Below are positions 1,352 through 16,913 of a DNA stretch of 33,333 bases, one piece after another (the stretch's first letter is position 1; each line of letters begins with the position of its first letter). Below the pieces are notes generated by a model that did no database searches, was not told where the DNA came from, and worked only from the letters and a program-made list of their open reading frames with translations. The translations under genes were made by a program, and so were the position numbers. Source of the stretch: a virus. The stretch is taken from the IMG/VR virus record IMGVR_UViG_3300009086_000055, positions 1-33,333 of that record, one strand, 5' to 3'.

Positions 1352-2188
1352 TTAAAATATATATCTTATTGTTTCTAAATTAAAGTACTTAGAGTACTGT
1401 TCTTTAAAGTGAGTAATACCTTTAGATTTTAATCCTAACTCATATCTCATCACACCTTGTTGGTTTTTAACTTGGTTAGACATACTCATCATCTGTCTAG
1501 CTTCCTCGCTAGCTTTGAGCATTTGATATTTATGGTTAGTAAGAAATATTACTTCACACTTATTTTCACCCGCAACATCTTTGACCTCTTTAAATAAGCT
1601 ATCATACTTGGTAATAAAACCTTTATGGATAACTACAGGAGAATAATTTATATGTACTTCCCATCCTAAAGACTTTAGTCTATTGATGTCTTGTATCCTA
1701 TCAGATATCTTTTGCATCTTAGGTTCTAAGATATCAGAATAAGATTGAGGCATAAGACTAACTCTTACTCTGGGCTTCTTGTTAAAGTGATTAACATCTA
1801 GCTTGAGTAAGGAAGGATACTTAGTAGCCATAGTTGTATTGAGTCTAGGATGATCATCATATCTTTTGAGATAATCAATCAGAGGCTTTGGCATGTGCTT
1901 CTGCATTAATACTAAATCAGAATTACACGCAATATCTACCATAGTATACTTGGGATCCTGTTGATCAGGTACTTTCTTATAAGTCTTTTCCCATTCTACT
2001 ACAGAATTAAAGATATCATCTACATTCTCGTTTACAAATACCCTATCTCCATTGTAGCGAGACATATAACAATAAGTGCTAACACATCCTCCAAAGCATC
2101 CATAGATTAGGTTAGGAGCAATACAGTTCGCACTATTGTTATTAGGTTTGGTAATTAAGGTTTTTGTTTTCTGATACTTGATAGGCAT
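1352..2188 (-). CDS. Radical-SAM protein, spore photoproduct lyase-like (SPL/COG1533-like), non-canonical Cys spacing
   Basis: This 278-aa protein looks like a radical S-adenosylmethionine enzyme. Near the N-terminus IYGCFGGC is followed by VSTYCYMSRY, giving Cys31, Cys35 and Cys40. The CYM ending after a GC start is typical of the SPL-like branch, where the three cysteines hold a 4Fe-4S cluster that cleaves SAM. The family norm is CX3CX2C; here it is CX3CX4C. A later block with RVRVSLMPQSY, then RI-DINRLKSLGWEV and a downstream Y-SLFKEV, resembles the SPL barrel region (substrate strand, 'RI..a..l...G', 'Pv......Y..LF'). Such enzymes repair or modify nucleic acids; the substrate here cannot be told. 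Its ATG lies 2 nt after the stop of the 56-aa gene, within the leftward operon. Confidence is good for a radical-SAM-like fold and lower for the SPL subgroup. Confidence 0.65.
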   Translation of the reverse strand: MPIKYQKTKTLITKPNNNSANCIAPNLIYGCFGGCVSTYCYMSRYNGDRVFVNENVDDIFNSVVEWEKTYKKVPDQQDPKYTMVDIACNSDLVLMQKHMPKPLIDYLKRYDDHPRLNTTMATKYPSLLKLDVNHFNKKPRVRVSLMPQSYSDILEPKMQKISDRIQDINRLKSLGWEVHINYSPVVIHKGFITKYDSLFKEVKDVAGENKCEVIFLTNHKYQMLKASEEARQMMSMSNQVKNQQGVMRYELGLKSKGITHFKEQYSKYFNLETIRYIF

Positions 2189-7007: not shown

Positions 7008-7578
7008 TTTTGAAACAGAAAGAAGTTTTTGGACCTCATACCCTGAGTTTAAAGTACTAATGCCCTTTAGTGAGTTTTATAAAAAAGACAAATCAAAAGA
7101 TAAAAATAAAAGTTCTAAGGTTATGTGGGGCATTGCGTTGGCAGAATGCCATAACTCTAATTGGTATAATTTAACTAACAAGTACGAACGTATTAAGGAA
7201 GACTTTATAAAAGAAAAAACTTTAAACTGGGAAGACTATGAGCCTATGATTAAAGTGTTTAAGGATACTCAGATCTCACAAGCAGAAAAATCTTTGACTG
7301 CTTGGAATGAGCTAATGCATAAAAGAGATAGTTATTTAAAAAATCAAGAATATTACTTTGATCAGTTTAAGGTAGACCCAAAGACTGGAGATAATGAGTA
7401 CTCTAGAACAGGGCAGCCTATATTACAAAAAGGTACTGCAGAGCAGTTAGATAAAGCCTACTCCACTACTCCTAAAATGTATGCAGACTACGAAAAAATT
7501 AAAAAAACATTAGGAGATGAAAAATCAATAGTGGCTAACCCTGATAATGAGTCACTTACAGATCAAGGATACTTATAA
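6997..7578 (+). CDS. Candidate small terminase-position protein (193 aa)
   Basis: The protein begins MISDFETERSFWTSYPEFKV. It is mainly helical, with the core KVMWGIALAECHNSNWYNLT (about 41-60) and a long charged helix through residues 80-130 (SQAEKSLTAWNELMHKRDSY). It lies directly before TerL and overlaps it by one base (TAATG), the usual place of a small terminase subunit. The helical make-up agrees with that, but I see no clear HTH. From memory, crAss-like genomes carry a conserved protein of this kind before terL. TerS is an inference; the existence of the gene is secure. Confidence 0.6.
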   Translation: MISDFETERSFWTSYPEFKVLMPFSEFYKKDKSKDKNKSSKVMWGIALAECHNSNWYNLTNKYERIKEDFIKEKTLNWEDYEPMIKVFKDTQISQAEKSLTAWNELMHKRDSYLKNQEYYFDQFKVDPKTGDNEYSRTGQPILQKGTAEQLDKAYSTTPKMYADYEKIKKTLGDEKSIVANPDNESLTDQGYL

Positions 7579-9776
7579 TGGTAAATAACGAAAACTTCTT
7601 AATTAAGAACATACCATCGTTTCATCCTATTACTCAGTATTATGATAGACTAACTTTTTTTAAAGAAGAAAAAAGAAAGTGTATAGAAGGCTATTGGCAG
7701 CAGGGTAAGTGGATGCCTGGTACTTTATACTACTATATTAATTGGCACCACATAGAACTAGAAGATTCTTTTACAAAAGGATTATCTCCAGGTACTCCAT
7801 TCCTTAGAGATATTGATTGGGAACTATTTTACTACTACGAAGAGTGTAGAGGTTTTTCTGGATTTATAGAAGACGATAAGTATACATGTGATAGAGATTA
7901 TGGTCCTAATAAAGAATTAGCACTTCTTACTGAAAGGATAACAGAGAAAGAGATAGCATCTAAAATATATGTTTCTGCTAGAGATTACTTGAGAAAAAAC
8001 CACGGAAACTCTTTAGGAAAACCTTTATACAAAAACTCTTCACAAAACTTTATATCTATTCAGGCTAGGGGTGGAGGTAAATCATTTGCTACTGCGGGTT
8101 TAATATCCCATAACTTTTTATTTGGAGGCGCTACAGATTATGACGTCTATCTGGAAAAAGCTAAAAAAGGAATGTATACTGTATCAGATACTATAGTAGG
8201 AGCTATTGATACCAAGTATACAGTTCCGCTATTAGATAAAGTAAGATACTCGTGGGCTCACATGAAAGGAGGCGAAAGTATTAGAGTCAAAGGAGATTCT
8301 GTAAAGTATCCTCCGCCCTTCTTATGCTCCTTTAGAGGCTCATGGCAAGCTAATCATAACTTAACTTCTAAACATGGCTCTAAGCTATACCATCGTACCT
8401 TTAAGGATAACCCTATGGCAGGTAACGCGGGTAGACCTAACCTTGCAGCTTTAGATGAGATTGGATTCTTTACTAATATTATAGATGCCTTAGGTGCTAT
8501 GATGGGATCTCAGACATCTAAAGAACATAAGAACTTAGTTATATGGATGTTAGGTACAGGAGGTTTATTCCAAGGAGCAGCTGTAAAGTATGCAGAAAAA
8601 ATATTTAGAAACCCTAGTGATTATAACTGCATAGAGTTTGAAGATATATTTGAGCAAAGAGGTAAAATAGGATATTTTGTACCTATTGATAAAACAAGAA
8701 ATGAATATAAATCAAAGCCTGAACTTATAACTGATCAAGATAAAGCTAACGTAGCTCTTCAGTATGAAAGAACAAAAGCAAAAAATAATCCAGATCCTAG
8801 GGTATATCAGTCTTTAGTAGTAAACGCACCTCGTATACCTTCTGAAGCTTTCTTAGATCCTGAAAATAACTTCTTCCCTTCTTTACTACTAAAAGATCAT
8901 TTAGCAGATCTTATGTCTAACCCTCATAAAGGAAGCGACGCTAGCTATGTAGGAAGCCTTACATACACAGAAGGAAAACTAGAATGGAAAACAGATTTAG
9001 AATTAAGACCTATTAGGGAGTATCCCTTACCCCCTGGGTATTCCAAGAAGGGAGCTATAGAGTTATTTGAAAAACCACAACTCAATGACCAGAATATTAT
9101 ACCGTTTAATAGGTATATAATAGGAGTCGATAGTGTAGATAAAGCTTTGTCTACTACAGATTCTTTATTCTGCGCACTAGTATTTGATAGATGGACAGGT
9201 AAAGTAGTAGCAGAATTTACAGGTAGAAGAGAAGACCCTAACGAAGCTTACGAAATATCTAGAAGATTGGCGCTATACTACAATTGCAGTATTATGTATG
9301 AACAGTCTCTACTAGGAATGTACACTTACTTTTCTAATAGAAACCAAACTCATCTATTAGCAGAAACTCCTATGGAACTTAGGAACAGAGATACCTATAG
9401 AATAAACACTAACTCATCTAAAGGACTACCTGCTACAACTAGAGTCAATGATACTGGACGTAACTTTATTAAGTCGCATCTATTAACTATTTTAAAAGAA
9501 GGAGACTCCTTACTACAACTAAGTCAAATAAAATCATTAGGGCTATTAGAAGAGCTGATTAAATGGAATCCTAAAGGAAACTTTGATAGGGTGTCTGCGT
9601 TTATACAGGTAATGTGGTATGACAATACGTTATACAAAGAAGAAGAAACTACCTCTCAAAAACAACAAGAAGTTTATACTGCATCTAATTACTTTAAACA
9701 ATTTGGGTTAGGGGCTGATAAATCAGAGATAGGAGTAGTAAAAACCACTATATATGATTACGGTGAAAATAAGTAA
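7578..9776 (+). CDS. terL: Terminase large subunit (TerL), ATPase plus nuclease
   Basis: This 732-aa protein is the packaging motor that pumps DNA through the portal and cuts the concatemer. The N-terminal ATPase half has a Walker A loop ARGGGKS (Lys168, Ser169), then a Walker B strand LAALDEIGFF (Asp293, Glu294). The C-terminal RNase H-like nuclease half has RYIIGVDSVD (Asp518), SIMYEQ (Glu575) and FDRVSAF (Asp670) as likely metal ligands. The N-terminal region, with PGTLYYYINWHHIEL, is typical of crAss-like TerL as I remember it. The length fits that group. It is coupled to the previous gene by TAATG, and its end is followed by a 40-nt gap holding a promoter element for the portal gene. Confidence 0.95.
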   Translation: MVNNENFLIKNIPSFHPITQYYDRLTFFKEEKRKCIEGYWQQGKWMPGTLYYYINWHHIELEDSFTKGLSPGTPFLRDIDWELFYYYEECRGFSGFIEDDKYTCDRDYGPNKELALLTERITEKEIASKIYVSARDYLRKNHGNSLGKPLYKNSSQNFISIQARGGGKSFATAGLISHNFLFGGATDYDVYLEKAKKGMYTVSDTIVGAIDTKYTVPLLDKVRYSWAHMKGGESIRVKGDSVKYPPPFLCSFRGSWQANHNLTSKHGSKLYHRTFKDNPMAGNAGRPNLAALDEIGFFTNIIDALGAMMGSQTSKEHKNLVIWMLGTGGLFQGAAVKYAEKIFRNPSDYNCIEFEDIFEQRGKIGYFVPIDKTRNEYKSKPELITDQDKANVALQYERTKAKNNPDPRVYQSLVVNAPRIPSEAFLDPENNFFPSLLLKDHLADLMSNPHKGSDASYVGSLTYTEGKLEWKTDLELRPIREYPLPPGYSKKGAIELFEKPQLNDQNIIPFNRYIIGVDSVDKALSTTDSLFCALVFDRWTGKVVAEFTGRREDPNEAYEISRRLALYYNCSIMYEQSLLGMYTYFSNRNQTHLLAETPMELRNRDTYRINTNSSKGLPATTRVNDTGRNFIKSHLLTILKEGDSLLQLSQIKSLGLLEELIKWNPKGNFDRVSAFIQVMWYDNTLYKEEETTSQKQQEVYTASNYFKQFGLGADKSEIGVVKTTIYDYGENK

Positions 9777-9803
9777 TTAATAAAACTTATACTTAATTTT
9801 GCC

Positions 9804-9811
9804 TAAATTTG
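9804..9811 (+). promoter_or_regulatory. Candidate -7 element TAAATTTG upstream of the portal gene
   Basis: TAAATTTG is an exact TAnnTTTG match, ending 5 nt before the ATG at 9817. If used, it would start transcription at or beside the ATG. It lies in the short gap after terL. This also supports choosing 9817, since a start at the TTG at 9799 would put the promoter inside the coding sequence. Confidence 0.4.
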
Positions 9812-9816
9812 CAAAC

Positions 9817-12189
9817 ATGTCGAATTATATTTCAAGTTTTCCTAGGCAAAAAATTCCTCAAGCTAAAAAGAATGAGAAGTGGGCAATGGAATGTGCTAAA
9901 GCAGCCGCAGAGCCTATTTTTCAAAACAATAGCAATATTAGGAAATCAATTAGAAATAAAGTAACTAATTATAACTTAAGGATAAATAAAATTAATTTAG
10001 AAGATGTAGAAGTAATCTGCAATCCTCATAAATTAAAAGACGACACTTTCCCAGATACCTTTAAACACATTGGAAGAGGTAACGCTTATGTAAATCTATT
10101 AATAGGAGAAAAGCTTAAAAGACCTTTAAACTTTAAAGTGTTTCTTTCTTCTAAAGACAGGGATGGCATAAACAAAAAAGAAAAAGATTTAAAAAACTTG
10201 CTTATAGGTAAAGTTCAGAACATGGTAATGTCTGAGTCATTAAACGAGCAAACTGCCGAGGCAGAGTTACAGAACCTATCAAAATACTTAAAGTACGAAT
10301 ATCAAGACATTAGAGAGCAGACAGCCACTAAGATTTTAAAAAGAGAAGTACAGAGGAATGACCTTAAATATAAGTTTGCACAATGCTGGGAGGATGCCTT
10401 AGTATGTGGAGAAGAGGTTATGTACATAGATGTTACAGGAAGAGACTTGCTAATAGAAAAAGTAAATCCTTTACAGTTTTATACATTAGGGTCTGGATAC
10501 TCTGAAAAGGTAGAAGATTCTGATATTATAGTATGGTTTGATTATAAGTCAGTAGGACAGATAATTGACCGCTACTATGACAAACTAACTGCTAAACAAA
10601 TAGACGAGTTAGAAGCAGGCTTAGACACTAAGAGTAAAGCTAGAAATCCATACAGTGCAATAGACAATAGTTTAATGTCCGCTGCAGCAGATAGTACATT
10701 GCCTAACGTAACTATAGTACCTCCTAACATTAGTCAATACGGAGGTAACTTTGTAGATAATGACGGTAACTTATTAGTTACATACATTAACTGGAGGTCT
10801 CGTAAAAAAATAGGAGAGCTTACTTACTATGATCCATTAGATGGGTCAGAGCAAAAAATGATTATCCCAGAAGGCTACCCTGTAGATGAAAACAAGGGAG
10901 AAAAATGCAACTGGTATTGGGTAAACGAATGGTATAAAGCTACACTCATCAAGGATGATATACTTGTAGATTGGGGCCCTATAGAGTTTCAGTCTAGATC
11001 CCCTTATCAACTTTCTGAAGGTAACCCTAATTTTGTAGGACAATATTACAATACTAACCAAGGTCAAGTTCATTCATTAATGGATGTAATAAAACCTCTT
11101 GACTACTCTTACGATATTGCTTATTGGAAAAGAGAACAAGAGATTGCTGCTAACTTTGGAACAATGACTTTCTATAATGCATCTATGGTACCTCATGGGT
11201 GGGATGCAGAGAAGTGGCTTAACTACGCAATAAAGAAAAAACTAGCGCCTTTAGATCCTACACAAGAAATATTAAAAGGCCCATCACAAAATAAATCTGC
11301 AGGAGTATTTAATACCCTAACTGCTACTGCTATACAATCACAGGCATATCAGGATATAAGATTATACACTGAGATTATGATGTCGCTCGAAGATCAAATG
11401 GCTAAGGTAACGGGAATTAACAGACAAAGAGAAGCCCAAATAAGTCCTTCAGAAACTGCTACTGCTACTCAAGTAGGATTCCAGCAGTCTTCAGCTATAA
11501 CAGAACCTTTGTTCTATAAGCAGTCTGAGTTTGAAAAAAGAGCACTAACACTATTACTAGAAAAAGCTAAGTACTTGTATAGTAAGTATCCACAGAGTGG
11601 TCAGTATGTATTTGATGAAATAGGGCTTGAGATGATTCAAGACTTTTCTGAGATATCAGAATCTCATATGGATATATATGTAGCAAACTCAGGCAAAGAG
11701 TTAACTCTACATGATACACTAAAACAAGTAGCAATGGCAGCTGTACAATCAGGGCAAGCCACTATGAGTGATATGGTAGCAATACACCTTGGAGATTCTA
11801 CACAAGACCTTGTTAGAAAATTAGAAACATCTTCTGAAAGAATTTCTAAACAACAACAAGAGTCTCAAGCTCGTCAAATTGAAGCAGCGTCAGAAGAAGC
11901 TGAAAAGGAAAGACTGTATAAGCAGTACAAAGATGAGATGGATTGGAATCTAAAGAATAGAGAACTAGATATTAAAGAAAATAATTTAGCAGCTAAAGAC
12001 AACGATACTAATAGAAATGCTATAAAAGATGAAGTAGAATACGAAATGAAGCAGCTAGAAGTAGAAGAGAAACGAACTTCCACAGATAAAAAGCTAGCAT
12101 CTAAATCAACAGAGGCAGACAAAGAAAGACAGTTAAAAAGAGATATAGAAAGAATGAGACTCTCCAATAAACTTAAAACAAGTAAATAA
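9817..12189 (+). CDS. Portal protein
   Basis: This 790-aa protein forms the dodecameric channel at one capsid vertex. Evidence includes IGRGNAYVNLLIGEKLKRPL near residue 83, the central wing region, and the stem/crown block with TGINRQREAQISPSETATAT then SSAITEPLFY, the usual sequence in portals around the stem helix. The last 140 residues are a charged, coiled-coil-like helix ending KLASKSTEADKERQLKRD and beyond, typical of the long crAss-like portal tail. I use the ATG at 9817 (MSNYISSFPRQ) rather than an in-frame TTG 18 nt upstream. It overlaps the fibre gene by one base (TAATG). Confidence 0.9.
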   Translation: MSNYISSFPRQKIPQAKKNEKWAMECAKAAAEPIFQNNSNIRKSIRNKVTNYNLRINKINLEDVEVICNPHKLKDDTFPDTFKHIGRGNAYVNLLIGEKLKRPLNFKVFLSSKDRDGINKKEKDLKNLLIGKVQNMVMSESLNEQTAEAELQNLSKYLKYEYQDIREQTATKILKREVQRNDLKYKFAQCWEDALVCGEEVMYIDVTGRDLLIEKVNPLQFYTLGSGYSEKVEDSDIIVWFDYKSVGQIIDRYYDKLTAKQIDELEAGLDTKSKARNPYSAIDNSLMSAAADSTLPNVTIVPPNISQYGGNFVDNDGNLLVTYINWRSRKKIGELTYYDPLDGSEQKMIIPEGYPVDENKGEKCNWYWVNEWYKATLIKDDILVDWGPIEFQSRSPYQLSEGNPNFVGQYYNTNQGQVHSLMDVIKPLDYSYDIAYWKREQEIAANFGTMTFYNASMVPHGWDAEKWLNYAIKKKLAPLDPTQEILKGPSQNKSAGVFNTLTATAIQSQAYQDIRLYTEIMMSLEDQMAKVTGINRQREAQISPSETATATQVGFQQSSAITEPLFYKQSEFEKRALTLLLEKAKYLYSKYPQSGQYVFDEIGLEMIQDFSEISESHMDIYVANSGKELTLHDTLKQVAMAAVQSGQATMSDMVAIHLGDSTQDLVRKLETSSERISKQQQESQARQIEAASEEAEKERLYKQYKDEMDWNLKNRELDIKENNLAAKDNDTNRNAIKDEVEYEMKQLEVEEKRTSTDKKLASKSTEADKERQLKRDIERMRLSNKLKTSK

Positions 12190-14246: not shown

Positions 14247-16913
14247 ATGTTTGGATTAACCTTAGGAGCAACAAGTTCAAGTGGTGGTGGTGTTGCGGCT
14301 GCTTTCGACTTTGAAAATGCTTTACAACTCGATGGAGTAAATGACTATGTCAATTTCACAGAGCAAACATATGCTTCAACCGTATTCTCCGCGTCTTTTT
14401 GGATAAGATACACAAACGTCAGAAGTAACAACATAATATTTGGCTCTGATTCTAATACTTTCAAATATTTCAGGCTCGATAGTGAAACTCAATTTAGTAT
14501 GCGTACTAGGTCGTCAAGTTCAACCATTGATACATTTACAGTTCCCGCTTTAGCTAATGGTACATGGTATCATATAGCGGTATCATTAGATAACGGAACA
14601 AATTTACTATGGTTAAATGGCACTCAATACACATCCAATTCTAGTGTAAATTACGCAGCCGAAAATATTGCTGTTGGTAGAATTGGTGGTCGTTCAAACA
14701 CGACACAAATGACGGAGGCAATAATTGATGACTTTATTATTCAAAGTACAGTATTAGACCAAACGGAGGTAGACTCTATCTACAATAGTGGCGCAGGCAA
14801 TCTACCAACAACTGTCTTTTCGAATTCTGATGTTTACTTTAAATTCGATGAATCTTCAGGAACAAGCGCGGCAGACTCAAGTGGCAACAGTAATACAGGA
14901 ACGCTCAACAACTTCACAGGCGCTTATTATTTTGTGCCTCACTCTTATGCGTATCCTTTTATGAATGCTTTGCAATTCGATGGTGTAAATGACTACGTAA
15001 GCATTGGAAGTTCTGTAAGTGTGAGCGCGGAAGCCACAGTAAATATGTGGGTTAAGTTTTCAGACCTTAATACCAGACTTGTTTCGGACACAAGTAATAC
15101 GGCAGTAATATGGACGCCTACAAGTACATCTGTAAGGGTATATTGTGGGGGTGGCTTTCGGGACTTTGTAGTGCCAACTATGAGTCTCGGAACTTGGCAT
15201 ATGATAACAGCGACAAGGGACGCTTCTAGTGGATGGCGAGTTTATTTAAACGGTACAGAAAGCACAAGCGGATTGCAAGTACGAGCAGGCACATTTAATG
15301 TAGATAGATTAGGTAACTTAGGGAGTGTCTATTCAGATATCGTTCTTGATGAGCTATCTATACTTGATGGTACAACGGCAAGTGATATTCAAATTAAATC
15401 ACTTTACAACTTTGGAGACGGGGCTGACGCTAACACGGCGCTTGGCTCTACTTCTTTATATTATAAATTTAATGAATCATCAGGCACAAGTGTAGCAGAT
15501 TCAAGCGGTAATGGTAACACAGGCACTTTAAATAATTTCACAGGAATTTATTTTATTCTTCAGGCGATTTACAACTTTGGAAATTACATTCAACCTGATG
15601 GTGTGAATGATACAGGTGAATTAAATTCACAAATTACACTTGGCACATCAACAGATTGGGTTGTTTCTTTTTGGGTAAAGGGTAGCGGTAGTTCTAACAC
15701 AACAAATACAATACTTAGTAACAGAACAAGTAGCGGTTATTATTCGTACCTTAGAACAGGTGCAACACCTTATGTGAGGTGGTCTTTTGGCGCAAACAAC
15801 ACAAGGCACGATTGGAGTCAATCAGCGTTGTCAGGATGGGATGACAATGCATGGCATCACGTTTACTTTTACAACGTGGTCGGAGCAGTACATCTTGTTT
15901 TTGACGGAGTTGATTATGGAGATGGAACGGCAACAGCAACACAAAACGGTGTTCGTATAAGAGACTTCTTTTACCGACAAGTAACAAATAGTATTCATTC
16001 AAAGGTAGCTATGGATGATTTTATTGCTCACGAAATAACAGGTAGTGTAGCGCAAGCACAATCTCTTTATAATAGCGGTGCAGGCGAAAATCCTTTTAGT
16101 GTTTTCGGAGCAACGCCTCAATATCGGTACAAGTTTGATGTCGCAAATACAGCGACAACAACAATTCCAAATAGTGGTAGCGCAGGTTCAAACGACTTAA
16201 CACTAAGCAACTTTACAGGAGCATATTTGTTAGAACATACATTCTCACCAATCGACTTGAGTCCTTTATTTTGGATGAATGCTTCAGCAGGTGTTACAGA
16301 GTCAGGCGGTGCTGTTAGCGCGTGGGCAGATCAAAGTGGAAACAGCAATGACTTTTCACAGAGTTCAGGTTCACTACAACCAACGTATGACGCGACAGGG
16401 CTAAATGGATTACCTACTATTATCTTTAACAATAAGGAATTAGTAAGTGGTGTTTTAAGTAGTCAAATATCCAATATCACAGTTTATTGTGTGTGGAAAA
16501 TGGACACTAACTACAACGGTGGAACTATATTGGGACAAACATCAGGTGCTAACAATAAACGATTCTTTTGGTATGACCCAGAAGACAGTATCTATTATTG
16601 GGATGGCGGTACAAGTAGTAAGATATTAGCAGCAAGTAATGACCCATTAGTATCTGCTGAAGCCTTTGTAATTCGCTCTGATTCAAATGGGGATGGAGAA
16701 GGTCGAGTTAATAATGATGCTTTTAGCGCTGAAAATAATGTTCAAGGCCTAACTACAGATGATGCGGCAATGACGATAGGTAATCGAGGAGCGGGCGCAG
16801 CAAGGCGGTTACAAGGTCGCATTTCTCAATTAATAGTTTATCAAGGCGAGCATACAGATGCTCAAGTTAATAACGTAATGAACTACTTAAACGGCATATA
16901 CTCAATATGGTAA
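14247..16913 (+). CDS. Multidomain LamG/concanavalin-like lectin virion protein
   Basis: This 888-aa protein consists of about four jelly-roll lectin-type (LamG-like) domains. Domain 1 starts near residue 27 (LQLDGVNDYVNFTEQ), domain 2 near 240 (ALQFDGVNDYVSIGSS), domain 3 near 445 (YIQPDGVNDTGELNS) and domain 4 near 669 (LSPLFWMNASAGV, AWADQSGNSNDF). Between them lie linkers with the repeated motif DESSGTSAADSSGNSNTGTL. Each has the usual SFWI..., GTWYHIAVSLDN...WLNG and IDDF-I features. It starts 3 nt after the fibre gene's stop. The family binds glycans, so host-surface or matrix polysaccharide binding, perhaps as part of a fibre complex, is the likely role. There is no signal peptide or clear catalytic site, although a hydrolase activity cannot be ruled out. 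Confidence 0.75.
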   Translation: MFGLTLGATSSSGGGVAAAFDFENALQLDGVNDYVNFTEQTYASTVFSASFWIRYTNVRSNNIIFGSDSNTFKYFRLDSETQFSMRTRSSSSTIDTFTVPALANGTWYHIAVSLDNGTNLLWLNGTQYTSNSSVNYAAENIAVGRIGGRSNTTQMTEAIIDDFIIQSTVLDQTEVDSIYNSGAGNLPTTVFSNSDVYFKFDESSGTSAADSSGNSNTGTLNNFTGAYYFVPHSYAYPFMNALQFDGVNDYVSIGSSVSVSAEATVNMWVKFSDLNTRLVSDTSNTAVIWTPTSTSVRVYCGGGFRDFVVPTMSLGTWHMITATRDASSGWRVYLNGTESTSGLQVRAGTFNVDRLGNLGSVYSDIVLDELSILDGTTASDIQIKSLYNFGDGADANTALGSTSLYYKFNESSGTSVADSSGNGNTGTLNNFTGIYFILQAIYNFGNYIQPDGVNDTGELNSQITLGTSTDWVVSFWVKGSGSSNTTNTILSNRTSSGYYSYLRTGATPYVRWSFGANNTRHDWSQSALSGWDDNAWHHVYFYNVVGAVHLVFDGVDYGDGTATATQNGVRIRDFFYRQVTNSIHSKVAMDDFIAHEITGSVAQAQSLYNSGAGENPFSVFGATPQYRYKFDVANTATTTIPNSGSAGSNDLTLSNFTGAYLLEHTFSPIDLSPLFWMNASAGVTESGGAVSAWADQSGNSNDFSQSSGSLQPTYDATGLNGLPTIIFNNKELVSGVLSSQISNITVYCVWKMDTNYNGGTILGQTSGANNKRFFWYDPEDSIYYWDGGTSSKILAASNDPLVSAEAFVIRSDSNGDGEGRVNNDAFSAENNVQGLTTDDAAMTIGNRGAGAARRLQGRISQLIVYQGEHTDAQVNNVMNYLNGIYSIW

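Follow-up and report, generated by a model that had tools for sequence, protein, structure and literature searches.

A predicted spore photoproduct lyase-family radical-SAM protein with a lengthened cluster loop in crAss-like phages

The locus and its SPL-family gene

The window, the whole stretch of 33,333 nt analysed here (IMG/VR virus record IMGVR_UViG_3300009086_000055), encodes on its minus strand a 278-amino-acid protein related to spore photoproduct lyase (SPL), in an open reading frame that runs from an ATG at 2188 to a TAA ending at 1352. The frame is open throughout, and its translation places cysteines at positions 22, 31, 35, 40, 88 and 211. A prior reading of the DNA from its letters, hereafter the sequence-only reading, had picked out Cys31, Cys35 and Cys40 as a radical-SAM cluster loop two residues longer than the canonical spacing, giving no strand, and the translation gives the same three residues. 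The features on which the analysis rests are as follows.

1352..2188, minus strand: SPL-family (PF20903) radical-SAM coding sequence, 278 aa, assigned from Pfam and NCBIfam profiles, AlphaFold and Foldseek
2123..2125, minus strand: Cys22, rejected alternative ligand (88 Cys, 12 Ala and 1 Ser among 101 sequences)
2069..2098, minus strand: predicted cluster loop C31-FGG-C35-VSTY-C40 (CX3CX4C), its cysteines invariant where present and aligned with the three cluster cysteines of SPL
2075..2083, minus strand: V36-S37-T38, site of the two extra residues, from gap placement in alignments
2072..2074, minus strand: Tyr39, aligned with Tyr97 of Bacillus subtilis (Bs) SPL; invariant, role from PMC3742179
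2066..2068, minus strand: Tyr41, aligned with Tyr99 of Bs SPL (radical relay); invariant, role from PMC3742179
1925..1927, minus strand: Cys88, aligned with the SPL hydrogen donor (Cys141 in Bs, Cys140 in Gt); from alignments, invariant in 103/103
7578..9776, plus strand: terminase large subunit, crAss-like (phrog_6681, E 3.8e-80; Cellulophaga phage phi14:2, 33%)
9799..12189, plus strand: portal protein, crAss-like (phrog_6547, E 5.5e-83)

The protein scored 61.2 bits against the Pfam SPL profile PF20903, for which the curated cutoff is 27, and matched the NCBIfam profile TIGR03886 ('spore photoproduct lyase family protein') over residues 7-278 with an E value of 2e-41. Both equivalog cutoffs were missed: 142.3 against 437.55 bits for TIGR03886, and 56.3 against 400 bits (E 2.4e-15) for TIGR04070, the profile of true SPL. 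Positions 1-61 of the TIGR03886 profile were unmatched: 60-odd N-terminal residues of the family profile are missing from the protein, and its C-terminal region is shortened as well. Its sequence relatives in the PDB were Geobacillus SPL structures only, and the profile match to SPL entry 4fhc had an E value of 1.4e-25.

An AlphaFold2 model built from a 67-sequence alignment reached a pLDDT of 92.6 and a pTM of 0.90. In a Foldseek search with this model, six SPL entries came first (TM about 0.80, E 6e-15 to about 1e-14), followed by pyruvate formate-lyase activase as the next family (E 2e-5), as is appropriate for a radical-SAM TIM barrel; a viral structure library held no close match. The profile and structural searches thus bear out the SPL-like barrel proposed by the sequence-only reading, which had also named a fold outside the radical-SAM barrels as grounds for abandoning its claim. 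Confidence in the model is lowest in the blocks covering the loop (residues 31-50), which average a pLDDT of 70-71, whereas a canonical-loop viral relative (L343) reaches 85-93 in its loop, and for this reason the model speaks for the barrel and not for convergence of the three cysteines. Overall, we are highly confident that the reading frame encodes an SPL-family radical-SAM protein with a predicted cluster site at C31/C35/C40.

A lengthened cluster loop across a phage clade

The loop reads YGC31FGGC35VSTYC40YM, within YGCFGGCVSTYCYM; its three cysteines are present and invariant, although their spacing (CX3CX4C) departs from the CX3CX2C of radical-SAM enzymes. The two extra residues were placed at V36-T38 because canonical relatives have one residue there. 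From viral contigs, the window protein used as the query retrieved 78 relatives and an alignment used as the query 229, and the clade set comprised 102 distinct proteins after duplicate removal, 97 of them full length. CX3CX4C was found in 96 of these 97, the remaining one (L066, 1823-2647; GCQGNCKSYCYM) having CX3CX3C, and C31, C35, C40, Y39 and Y41 were invariant wherever the residue was present. Across 99 unsaturated pairs from the clade, dN/dS had a median of 0.14, which indicates that the gene is under purifying selection. The shared spacing, the invariant cysteine triad and this selection argue against chance or a frameshift, and a sequencing error is likewise ruled out by the approximately 100 distinct homologues that share the loop. 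As judged from these sequences, the stretched loop is a real, lineage-wide trait of the clade, in keeping with the earlier suggestions that the insertion was no frameshift and that it marked a variant cluster loop in a phage lineage.

In the tree, the clade formed one group with full support, joined to all known relatives by a very long branch (length 4.58), owing to which the tree does not place its sister group. L066 is nested inside the clade, and its loop, one residue longer than canonical, is therefore probably a later shortening. When all viral contigs were scanned for the C-x-G-x-C...YCYM frame, with a TAT codon required for Tyr41, no case emerged with the canonical gap or with one extra residue; the same pattern with two extra residues gave 154 matches in the collected loci, indicating that the pattern works. 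The canonical CX3CX2C was read in bacterial TIGR03886 proteins, in B. velezensis SplB and in a second viral clade described below.

Cys22 is common in the clade and, by replacing one of the loop cysteines at the cluster, would give a more usual geometry, an arrangement that the sequence-only reading had flagged as fatal to its own proposal. Of 101 clade sequences, 12 have Ala and 1 has Ser at this position, and neither the canonical relatives nor SPL has a cysteine there; being unconserved, Cys22 is rejected as the alternative ligand, and such an exchange is almost certainly not what occurs.

Departures from CX3CX2C are found in other accepted radical-SAM members: CX5CX2C in HcgA/HmdB, CX14CX2C in QueE and CX2CX4C in ThiC (PMC4389238, PMC10100467), and the motif of PhnJ is also among the listed deviants. 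HcgA/HmdB and QueE stretch the first spacer, whereas the window protein stretches the second, within an SPL barrel; ThiC has a different architecture. A literature search for the spelling CX3CX4C, covering that spelling alone and sources other than subscription journals, returned no radical-SAM paper.

Catalytic residues and phage context

In SPL, by B. subtilis numbering, Cys141 is the hydrogen donor, Tyr99 takes part in the radical relay and Tyr97 lies at SAM (PMC3742179). Three alignments from different programs matched C88, Y41 and Y39 to Cys141, Tyr99 and Tyr97, respectively. The phage protein thus has the hydrogen-donor cysteine and the two tyrosines of a true SPL, and none of the three varies within the clade. 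SplB (PF20903, TIGR04070; PDB 4fhc) resembles the window protein in overall homology, in fold (TM 0.80), in its three-cysteine loop with a tyrosine before and after the third cysteine, and in the hydrogen-donor cysteine; it differs in its CX3CX2C spacing and in the N-terminal region that the phage protein lacks. The TIGR03886 proteins of Deinococcus, Actinomycetota and Alphaproteobacteria are homologous over residues 7-278, with about 30% identity among the matches listed, but have the canonical loop, retain the N-terminal region and often carry Glu in place of the hydrogen-donor Cys. Because that Glu occurs in many bacterial TIGR03886 proteins, the active site of the phage clade looks more SPL-like than theirs. 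One SPL-family gene, L271, lies on a 321-kb contig of jumbo-phage size and is about 51% identical to a Deinococcus protein.

The window carries a crAss-type terminase and portal, whose best named records were crAss-like or Bacteroidota phages, including Cellulophaga phage phi14:2, and 27 of the 30 large contigs carrying the clade had a crAss-type terminase. Elsewhere in the window, positions 14247-16913 hold an 888-aa open reading frame with repeated DGVNDYV / GNTGTLNNFTGAY segments that by eye resemble LamG-type concanavalin-like domains. The neighbours of the SPL-like gene are variable and include genes for DNA polymerase A, a PD-(D/E)XK nuclease, uracil-DNA glycosylase (UDG) and a helicase, together with primase-like and DnaA-like genes. 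Contig L001, whose SPL-like protein matches that of the window exactly, runs beyond the window edge, and genes for DNA polymerase A and a helicase follow there downstream. Given this variability, the link with DNA genes may simply reflect an early region. Two genes downstream of the SPL-like gene, positions 368-964 encode a 198-aa protein with a DUF1281_C Api92-like ferredoxin-fold domain.

None of the 30 carriers tested encodes a flavin photolyase. Beside a bacterial SPL-family gene a photolyase was seen in one case, and a partial query found none in 80 other loci, so we give this pairing no weight. INPHARED phages contained no relative of the clade, which suggests that the gene is absent from the cultured and gut crAss-like phages there, and no close relatives were found in bacterial genomes. 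The carrier contigs come from IMG sample types that we take to be aquatic, which, with the Cellulophaga/Flavobacterium kinship, leads us to infer that the carriers are aquatic phages.

The second viral SPL-family clade (L272-L345; GCLYNCSYCYMKRHKP) has a CX3CX2C loop and 31-37% identity to the window protein. In other respects it is similar: its members are of similar length, lack the N-terminal region, have the YCYM motif, keep the hydrogen-donor cysteine in the rows shown and often occur in crAss-like phages, with a crAss terminase in 9 of 15 large contigs from the second set of search results. Phages with a terminase about 52% identical to that of the window carry this canonical-loop clade instead. 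In one crAss-like contig (G041, 53108-53952; L395 and L396), a canonical-loop SPL-family gene is apparently split in two. A single SPL-family gene, of one or the other loop type, was present on each of 39 carrier contigs; since many of these contigs are fragments and all were selected because they carry one, the pattern is only suggestive that the two loop types may fill one shared role.

A candidate function and its alternatives

These observations allow us to propose that the phage enzyme probably reverses a thymine photolesion in phage DNA, directly and independently of light. C31, C35 and C40 would hold a [4Fe-4S] cluster, to whose free iron SAM would bind and be cleaved to a 5'-deoxyadenosyl radical; this radical would take a hydrogen from the lesion, which would then fragment, C88 would give hydrogen back to the thymine radical and Y41 would pass the radical back to SAM. 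A bulge in the loop might accommodate the two residues added between C35 and Y39, leaving the three ligands and Y39/Y41 unmoved. Once infection has occurred, repair would act on the phage genome. Spore photoproduct is a lesion of dry or A-form DNA, and we assume that it arises in packaged phage DNA; it is the leading candidate for the lesion, an identification we make tentatively. Its formation in dried DNA has been described, and an SPL-family gene is UV-induced in non-sporulating Curtobacterium (PMC12029717), which speaks for a connection between UV damage and the family at large. The full picture, of active SPL-type photolesion reversal in aquatic crAss-like phages by an enzyme that would bind [4Fe-4S] through CX3CX4C and would repair damage in densely packed phage DNA, is possible and falls somewhat short of being probable.

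The strongest alternative is that an enzyme on the SPL scaffold modifies nucleic acid, such as a phage DNA base or host RNA, and does not repair it, the stretched loop accompanying a new chemistry. Enzymatic modification of phage DNA is common, and the very long branch, the lost N terminus, the shortened C-terminal region and the scores far below the equivalog cutoffs would all suit such a divergence. Against it stand the invariant radical-relay residues C88, Y39 and Y41, and the alternation with a canonical-loop clade in similar phages at one gene per contig, and we regard it as unlikely. The 'different substrate class' offered by the sequence-only reading is disfavoured for the same reason, that the catalytic Cys and Tyr residues of SPL are kept.

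Less probable still is light-independent repair directed at some lesion that is not a thymine photoproduct, or protection of the host genome, as may hold for TIGR03886 proteins, which are found in many non-spore-formers. The phage protein does score higher with TIGR03886 (142 bits) than with the profile of true SPL (56 bits); however, the hydrogen-donor cysteine shared by the phage clade and true SPL is replaced by Glu in many TIGR03886 proteins. That the insertion abolished the cluster and left a degenerate fold for DNA binding only is very improbable: the spacing does break the superfamily rule and the loop is modelled with low confidence, yet a dead loop could freely lose its cysteines, whereas the three cysteines, both tyrosines and C88 are invariant in about 100 distinct proteins under purifying selection.

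Few motifs in enzymology are as conserved as the radical-SAM cluster loop, whose variants escape motif-based searches. The clade with two extra loop residues and the canonical-loop clade, present in similar phages, form a natural pair for relating loop tolerance to radical chemistry. If our preferred reading of photolesion reversal is correct, many environmental phages would carry their own light-independent repair of UV lesions, which would bear on phage survival in sunlight and on whether spore photoproduct can also form beyond spores.
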